DNA of 36,274 bases, taken from Thermodesulfovibrionales bacterium. Lineage in GTDB: Bacteria; Nitrospirota; Thermodesulfovibrionia; Thermodesulfovibrionales; Dissulfurispiraceae. The notes below the pieces were generated by a model, which ran no database searches, was not told where the DNA came from, and worked only from the letters and a program-made list of their open reading frames with translations. The position numbers and the translations under genes were made by a program. Location: the NCBI GenBank assembly GCA_030017995.1, contig JASEGS010000018.1, forward strand, positions 1 through 36,274. The letters run 5' to 3'. Of this stretch, positions 22,490 through 23,634 are shown piece by piece; the first letter of the stretch is position 1, and each line of letters opens with the position of its first letter.

Positions 22490-22664
22490 ATTATTCATAA
22501 ACTTTGTTATGCGGAAGACAAAGTATTTCCGCTTCATTCTCGAATATCATCCAGCCCTTCTCCGAAACTACGCCAGTCTGCTTAGACATCCATGTCACGC
22601 ATGGGCTGTTGAAGTCGCTCTAACACTTTGTCTTCCGCTTTGGCTATCGTAATTTATGAATAAT
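22490..22664. repeat. 175-bp imperfect inverted repeat with internal hairpins
   Basis: ATTATTCATAAA (22490-22501) and GCGGAAGACAAAGT (22511-22524) have exact reverse complements at 22653-22664 and 22625-22638, so the element folds into one long stem with a small asymmetric bulge. Inside lie CAGCCC/GGGCTG (22552-22557, 22603-22608), GTCT-GCTT-AGAC (22576-22587) and CCATG-TCACG-CATGG (22590-22604). No ORF of note lies within. It sits between convergent ligA and the 46-aa gene. It could be a MITE-like element, a structured RNA or a bidirectional terminator. Confidence 0.65.
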
Positions 22665-22671
22665 TTAGCTT

Positions 22672-22812
22672 TTAGTGGGCGCCGTGTATCAGTATCGGCA
22701 GACATCTTACGCAGACAAGTTTCTCCTCGCCTGAGTGAATACAAGGCAGATACACCCTGTTATTATCGGTTGCACCGCAAACAAAACATTTGATTTCTTT
22801 AGTCTCATTCAT
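22672..22812 (-). CDS. 46-residue CxxC zinc-binding protein
   Basis: Translation from ATG 22812 gives a protein with two knuckles, CFVCG near residues 9-13 and CVRCLP near 34-39, and a further LPCIHSGEE between them. It ends LIHGAH. Two CxxC pairs suggest a zinc ribbon or a thiol-redox site. The start is fused to the DUF1858 stop (TAATG, 1-base overlap) with GGAGG seven bases upstream, so the two are translationally coupled. I know similar tiny proteins next to DUF1858 genes but no assigned function. It is easily missed because it is short. Confidence 0.75.
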   Translation of the reverse strand: MNETKEIKCFVCGATDNNRVYLPCIHSGEEKLVCVRCLPILIHGAH

Positions 22813-23024: not shown

Positions 23025-23067
23025 TTTGTCCTCCCTTTTAAAGTTACGGTGATAAATTATTATTTTT

Positions 23068-23073
23068 AGTTTA
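23068..23073 (-). promoter_or_regulatory. Candidate -10 box for the DUF1858 gene
   Basis: On the minus strand this reads TAAACT, matching TATAAT at four of six positions. Its upstream base lies 29-30 bases from the centre of the 23094-23111 palindrome, mirroring the arrangement on the plus strand. There is no -35 box of its own, as expected if an activator binds there. Confidence 0.35.
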
Positions 23074-23093
23074 CAAAATATCGCTGTTTTATT

Positions 23094-23111
23094 TTATGAT
23101 ACAGGTCATAA
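23094..23111. promoter_or_regulatory. CRP/FNR-type palindromic operator 1
   Basis: TTATGA-TACAGG-TCATAA has exact 6-base half-sites with a 6-base spacer. The geometry is that of CRP/FNR-superfamily sites and differs by one base per half from TTGTGA-N6-TCACAA, the motif known for CRP and for HcpR in Desulfovibrio. It is centred near -41/-42 relative to the likely DUF1858 start. Confidence 0.7.
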
Positions 23112-23116
23112 TGCCT

Positions 23117-23134
23117 TTATGACTTCTATCATAA
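23117..23134. promoter_or_regulatory. CRP/FNR-type palindromic operator 2
   Basis: TTATGA-CTTCTA-TCATAA repeats the half-sites of operator 1 exactly but with a different spacer, 23 bases centre to centre. With the TATTAT box at 23154-23159 the start would fall near 23167, putting this site at about -41.5, the class II activation position. Identical arms with unlike spacers argue for selection on the arms. Confidence 0.75.
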
Positions 23135-23153
23135 CAGAAAGCATCCTGCTTAA

Positions 23154-23159
23154 TATTAT
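23154..23159 (+). promoter_or_regulatory. Candidate -10 box for the four-helix oxidase-like gene
   Basis: TATTAT matches the consensus at five of six positions, and lies 31 bases before the ATG at 23190. No -35 box is evident; operator 2 occupies that region. This pattern is typical of activator-dependent promoters. Confidence 0.45.
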
Positions 23160-23189
23160 GATTTTATAAAACAACCATGAGGAGGAGTA

Positions 23190-23597
23190 ATGGATAAGTT
23201 TGTAAGAAATTTTATTGTGATGAGCATCGCATATCTCGCATTAGCGGCACTTCTTGGCGTCCTAATGCTTGCCAACCCATCTTACCTTTACCTAAAGTTT
23301 GTTCACTCTCATCTTAATCTGTTGGGATGGGTCTCCATGATGATCTACGGTGTTGGCTATCATATCTTGCCCCGTTTTGCAGGGAAAAAACTAAAAAGCG
23401 TGAAGATGGGTGAAATGCAGTTCTATTTAGCTAACATTGGGCTTATCGGTATGTTGTTGTTCTACATGTTTCAAACGGCTAACCCTGATATATCGCTCTA
23501 CAGAGCGCTCTCTGCTGCCTTTGGTCTTGTGGAGGTTCTTTCAATAGCGTTGTTTTTCTATAATATGCTTGCCACACTGCTTTCCAAAGAAGAGTAA
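23190..23597 (+). CDS. Small four-helix heme-copper-oxidase-like/NnrS-like membrane protein
   Basis: This 135-residue protein has four predicted membrane helices (about 8-28, 38-60, 76-96, 104-128). Helix 2 carries H39, H41 and H58 within KFVHSHLNLLGWV and YGVGYHILPRF. This resembles heme-ligand helices of heme-copper oxidase subunit I and of NnrS, but the protein is far too short to be a whole oxidase. GGAGGAG precedes ATG 23190. It is divergent from DUF1858 under shared palindromic sites, so a role in haem-based sensing or detoxification of NO or oxygen is a reasonable inference. The product is often annotated only as cytochrome oxidase subunit I-like. Confidence 0.75.
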   Translation: MDKFVRNFIVMSIAYLALAALLGVLMLANPSYLYLKFVHSHLNLLGWVSMMIYGVGYHILPRFAGKKLKSVKMGEMQFYLANIGLIGMLLFYMFQTANPDISLYRALSAAFGLVEVLSIALFFYNMLATLLSKEE

Positions 23598-23598
23598 A

Positions 23599-23634
23599 AG
23601 GGGGCTATGCCCCCTAAAACCTCTGTCTTTTTTA
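23599..23634 (+). terminator. GC-rich hairpin after the four-helix gene
   Basis: AGGGGGC (23599-23605) pairs with GCCCCCT (23609-23615) around loop TAT, two bases after the stop codon. A T-rich run (TCTTTTTT) begins about 12 bases later, further than usual for an intrinsic terminator, but the stem is strong. Confidence 0.55.

Follow-up and report, generated by a model that had tools for sequence, protein, structure and literature searches.

CRP/FNR-type regulons for nitrosative stress and denitrification have been described in several bacterial groups. HcpR recognizes motifs of the forms wTGTGA-N6-TCACAw, TTGAC-N4-GTCAA and GTAAC-N4-GTTAC, with bases 3 and 6 tied to recognition-helix residues 180 and 181 (PMC1274295, Rodionov et al.), and the HcpR1 regulon of Desulfovibrio and Geobacter combines a GA-N6-TC inverted repeat with hcp and nitrosative-stress targets in anaerobes (PMC1274295, PMC5701242). 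In Bradyrhizobium diazoefficiens, the CRP/FNR regulator NnrR controls norCBQD as well as an adjacent DUF1858 gene, bsl7085, which lies next to nnrR and is 29-fold NnrR-dependent (PMC6710368), and DNR of Pseudomonas and beta-proteobacteria is an NO-responsive CRP/FNR activator of nor genes. The locus described here, from a Thermodesulfovibrionales bacterium (Nitrospirota), belongs to a putative regulon that would functionally resemble those of DNR and NnrR and that has the repeat core and type of target seen with HcpR1. However, HcpR1 reads TGTGA-N6-TCACA or TTGAC-N4-GTCAA with an R/P/S-E helix, NnrR reads a FixK-like TTG-N8-CAA box in another phylum and as part of a denitrification cascade, and the DNR motif is TTGAT-N4-ATCAA (PMC1274295); the DNR structure 3dkw ranked only in the middle of the sequence matches (E 2e-12). 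No paper on such a regulon in Nitrospirota was found in the literature searched, a scope that left out subscription journals and RegPrecise.

The window, that is, the whole stretch of 36,274 nucleotides that was analysed, contains two palindromes with the same arms, TTATGA-N6-TCATAA, and differing spacers, which lie with a start-to-start distance of 23 bases in the gap between a DUF1858 gene and a divergent gene for a four-helix membrane protein (Table 1). The initial annotation had described this arrangement, and all of it was verified in the sequence. Each palindrome holds a 16-bp inverted repeat with the TGA-N6-TCA-type core of CRP/FNR class II promoters. Taken as a whole, the analysis makes us fairly confident that this is a divergent promoter pair under a CRP/FNR activator encoded on contig C31 of the same genome, which would act in class II fashion and respond to NO.

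Table 1. Features of the divergent module and of the second CRP-like regulator locus.
Feature	Position	Strand	Remarks
46-aa protein, two CxxC pairs	22672..22812	-	from translation; start overlaps DUF1858 stop
DUF1858 / TIGR03980 protein, 70 aa	22812..23024	-	CxxC redox-disulfide domain; profile matches
Divergent gap, 165 bases	23025..23189		bounded by DUF1858 start (23024, minus strand) and four-helix gene start (23190)
-10 box TAAACT, DUF1858 promoter	23068..23073	-	predicted start ~23061; from sequence and 41 relatives
Palindrome 1, TTATGATACAGGTCATAA	23094..23111	.	core TATGATACAGGTCATA, 23095-23110, centre 23102.5; putative operator, DUF1858 promoter
Palindrome 2, TTATGACTTCTATCATAA	23117..23134	.	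core TATGACTTCTATCATA, 23118-23133, centre 23125.5; putative operator, four-helix promoter
-10 box TATTAT, four-helix promoter	23154..23159	+	predicted start ~23166; from sequence and 53 aligned loci
Four-helix membrane protein, 135 aa	23190..23597	+	related to cbb3 oxidase subunit I
C41 CRP-like regulator and divergent octaheme HAO-like cytochrome gene	L030 1437-2123, 2474-3688		own contig C41

A search with the four-helix protein returned 77 loci, mostly from Nitrospirota, and 71 of these had usable upstream regions. The exact pattern TATGAY-N4-RTCATA is present no more than 300 bases upstream of the four-helix gene in 55 of the 71 (76 sites in all), against 0 for the reversed pattern and a mean of 0.02 for shuffles; the remaining 16 loci have no exact match, several of them containing a version that differs at one base. 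Compared with the 18-mer as first written, this refined motif keeps the core, has a weak outer T/A and gains a pyrimidine/purine pair after TGA. On the opposite strand, the motif accompanies 41 of 44 divergent DUF1858 genes. These comparisons indicate that the palindromes are real and widely conserved sites, one for each gene. In relatives from Planctomycetota/Brocadiales (L140-L143), DUF1858 comes after the four-helix gene on the same strand, and no TATGAY motif was found there wherever the upstream region is readable.

Pattern searches were also run on the genome to which the window belongs (G000, 1.70 Mb, 97% complete). The exact 18-mer occurs only four times in the whole genome (reversed control, 0): twice in this gap and twice in coding DNA, once within an 852-aa ORF and once across the start of a 178-aa ORF. 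Allowing one mismatch gave 23 matches vs 3 in the control, and most of them fall in coding DNA, so the 18-mer in its first form is a loose proxy; the one-mismatch scan of this genome was set aside as uninformative because coding matches dominate it. The refined motif has four matches against 0 in the control, including one upstream of a CGGC-like gene (C4:33350) and a doubtful one 97 bases ahead of a proA-like gene (C30:5817). The initial annotation had allowed for a motif common in coding DNA, and for the loose pattern the outcome here is mixed, the matter being decided by the refined pattern and by the relatives. Its proposed scan for the 18-mer ahead of hcp and NO genes likewise led only to this gap and to coding DNA in this genome, while in relatives the refined sites do precede norCB and hcp.

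The promoter layout was derived by aligning 53 sequences on the palindrome only, with no promoter model. From the flank of the palindrome to the -10 box there is little conservation, and on the four-helix side a TATAAT-like box then stands at +29.5 to +34.5 from the centre, followed by an A (70%) at +41.5, the presumed start site. On the DUF1858 side a TATACT-like box lies at the same distance (T.90, A.88, T.54, A.71, C.56, T.88 in 41 relatives), again with A at +41.5 (83%), and an alignment of 33 further promoters, with norC, hcp, HAO, HPP and CGGC-like types among them, likewise brings out a -10 box at +29.5/30.5. In the window, the distance from palindrome centre to -10 box is 29.5 bases for palindrome 1 (minus-strand box) and 28.5 bases for palindrome 2 (plus-strand box); with the starts placed by these boxes, the palindromes sit at -41.5 of the DUF1858 promoter and at -40.5 of the four-helix promoter. 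The claim of -41.5 for each direction is thus exact on the DUF1858 side and one base off on the four-helix side, and -41.5 is the norm of the relatives on both strands. That neither promoter has a -35 box of its own and that each has one palindrome, as also proposed initially, is backed by the palindrome-anchored alignments and by a survey of divergent gaps. The predicted layout is a class II geometry at -41.5 lacking a -35 box, and it recurs on both strands in the family.

Nearly all divergent gaps in the relatives have one palindrome per promoter, at distances that range from zero, where a single site is shared, to more than 1 kb; in L096 and L114 a single palindrome is flanked by a -10 box on each side, and the 23-base spacing of the window is found again in L070. 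Since the spacing varies to this extent, the two palindromes are best read as independent operators, and their interpretation as a cooperative tandem was rejected.

To define the likely regulon, the refined motif was scanned in 31 genomes of the family, and the context of each site was judged by inspection. In relatives, sites precede norC-norB, hcp, an octaheme HAO-like cytochrome gene and a gene for a RIC-like hemerythrin protein, as well as genes for CBS and HPP-transmembrane proteins, a CGGC-like protein, a cupin and an 82-aa CxxC protein. Pfam families could be assigned to 8 of 10 example target proteins, the CGGC-like and 82-aa CxxC proteins having no Pfam match. NO reductase and nitrosative-repair genes (norCB, RIC-like hemerythrin, hcp) are therefore among the targets in relatives, and together with the HAO-like gene they bear out the earlier suggestion of a nitrosative or redox regulon. 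For hcp, a TATGAY site is present in 7 family relatives, in one of them with a single mismatch, and not in 4 others. The proposed link to hcp does not hold in the genome of the window, where no true hcp is present and the sole prismane-family match is a 660-aa CO-dehydrogenase-like protein; no norB was recognised there either, and the regulon of this organism would consequently be small.

The same genome encodes four cNMP-type domains, and only two of them belong to full-length CRP/FNR proteins, referred to here by their contigs as C31 and C41. The C31 protein (C31:3357-4040) is 228 aa long and has the recognition helix VETTIR, of the VETxIR type with V at residue 180 and E at residue 181. With a cut-off of at least 55% identity, all 20 family genomes with promoter-context sites contain an ortholog of it and the remaining 11 contain none (n = 31; chance 1.2e-8 with kinship ignored), and contrasts between presence and absence of regulator and sites occur inside one genus (G017 vs G018) as well as between neighbouring genera. 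At the level of the order (149 genomes), genomes that have the regulator average 4.39 sites and those that lack it 1.96 (p 5e-9, kinship again ignored); G066, G081, G105 and G132 are regulator-negative at the strict cut-off yet have several motif matches, and their regulators were possibly missed or fragmented. In 38 related loci (e.g., L312-L315), the VETxIR gene and the four-helix gene are directly adjacent and arranged tail to tail, which brings regulator, operator and both targets together in one locus. Autoregulation was rejected, because across 20 regulator loci no exact site was found before the regulator gene itself, and the one exact site at these loci (L256) precedes a neighbouring hemerythrin gene. 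The reader of the palindromes is probably the C31 protein.

Taken together, we hypothesize that a dimeric CRP/FNR-family activator, most likely the C31 protein, controls the divergent promoter pair. One dimer on palindrome 1 would recruit RNA polymerase to the DUF1858 promoter and another on palindrome 2 would recruit it to the four-helix promoter, each substituting, from about -41.5, for the absent -35 element. Orthologs of this activator in relatives probably also control the norCB, hcp, RIC-like hemerythrin, octaheme HAO-like and CBS-HPP genes. Gene content makes nitric oxide, or nitrosative stress, the most likely signal. Sequence comparison establishes the conservation of the sites, their distance to the -10 boxes, the genes next to them, and the linkage and co-occurrence of the regulator; binding by the regulator, activation rather than repression, and the roles of both proteins are what we infer from these data. 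If correct, the proposal assigns to Nitrospirota a putative operator and a probable regulator of nitrosative-stress control, together with the set of genes concerned, and the pairing of helix VETxIR with TATGAY becomes a candidate new specificity in the CRP/FNR recognition code.

Two other candidates for the reader of the palindromes have to be weighed. It is quite improbable that the regulator is simply the HcpR ortholog of this lineage with a shifted motif, as the shared geometry, GA-N6-TC core and targets such as hcp might suggest, because the same genomes contain a separate PETxSR clade with about 30% identity to VETxIR, each clade having support of 100/97 in a tree built without outside HcpR references. 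Several PETxSR members adjoin hcp, and hcp is preceded there by TTGAY-N4-RTCAA, in agreement with HcpR1 of Geobacter (PMC1274295), whereas the motif of our loci, TATGAY-N4-RTCATA, is of neither TGTGA, TTGAC nor GTAAC type. Tree placement and motif thus led us to reject the HcpR identity, and the initial link of the motif to HcpR/CRP was abandoned, given that the HcpR1-type paralogs of the same genomes differ both in helix and in hcp site; the comparison indicates that the VETxIR protein is a parallel regulator with a specificity of its own and with targets that overlap those of HcpR. The CRP-like protein C41 (REVVGR helix) might be considered as well, since the genome encodes just one other full-length CRP/FNR protein and the C41 gene adjoins an N-oxide-type cytochrome gene. 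However, no ortholog of it above 36% identity exists among the family genomes that have the motif, position 180 holds an R as in CRP, from which a TGTGA site would be expected, and the gap that separates it from its divergent HAO-like gene lacks a TATGAY site; C41 was rejected on phyletic grounds and is highly improbable as the reader. The relatives of its octaheme HAO-like neighbour carry the TATGAY motif instead. In the hcp loci L282, L283, L286 and L309, from genomes without a VETxIR regulator, HcpR1-type TTGACTTAAGTCAA palindromes lie ahead of hcp.

The remaining alternatives concern the sites, the mode of action and the signal. The likelihood that the palindromes arose by chance in AT-rich intergenic DNA is virtually nil: one-mismatch forms are indeed scattered through coding DNA of this genome, but conservation far above shuffles and the reversed control, along with conserved promoter spacing, already refutes this reading. 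CRP/FNR proteins are capable of repression, and a repressor model has been proposed for HcpR2 (PMC5701242), yet a repressor is improbable here, the constant spacing of -41.5 without a -35 box, on both strands and at many promoters, being the signature of a class II activator. That the same regulon and regulator respond to another signal, such as oxygen, CO, redox state or nitrite, is unlikely though not negligible. Sequence cannot reveal the signal, and the module itself combines a redox-disulfide domain, DUF1858, with an oxidase-like four-helix protein; on the other side, the recurring norCB, hcp, RIC-like and HAO-like targets point to nitrogen oxides, and no conserved FNR-type Fe-S cysteines were found in the VETxIR clade.

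The proteins of the module may provide further hints to its function. The DUF1858 protein scores 41.5 bits against its Pfam family, above the cut-off of 32.2, and 44.1 bits against TIGR03980 ("hybrid cluster protein-associated redox disulfide domain"), slightly below the cut-off of 44.95. The gene for the 46-aa protein with two CxxC pairs is a conserved third member, found in 47 related loci. The membrane protein with four helices, recognized as such from the beginning, proved to be a short protein related to subunit I of cbb3 oxidase (TIGR00780, E 1.2e-7): it matches CcoN model positions 307-392 and retains an HxH pair, and 76 homologs show no variation at H39, H41 and H58. Unlike CcoN/NorB, it has only 135 aa, four helices and about 80 model positions, with 31 bits against the equivalog cut-off of 583 for full-length CcoN, and is no oxidase by itself. 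Its AlphaFold2 model (pLDDT 86.7) gave weak fold matches to NOR and cbb3, the best at E 0.37, and the fold search returned nothing more specific. It is possible, if doubtful, that Nitrospirota possess a dedicated and previously undescribed module for sensing and handling NO, made up of the regulator, the four-helix HxH protein, the DUF1858 protein and the 46-aa double-CxxC protein. A "quarter" heme-copper oxidase would in that case bind NO or pass NO or electrons to the redox-disulfide proteins. Regulation by the C31 protein would in any case provide a testable physiological context for the DUF1858 partner and for the four-helix HxH protein, both of them small, uncharacterised and strongly conserved families.

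Immediately past the four-helix gene, at 23597-23615, a GC hairpin and the T that follows it resemble a terminator on the minus strand. Between ligA and the module lies a 17-nt inverted repeat (22511-22527 / 22622-22638, 94% complementary), with a second, perfect 12-nt pair outside it (22490-22501 / 22653-22664), and together the two repeat pairs resemble a small element of mobile or repeat type.
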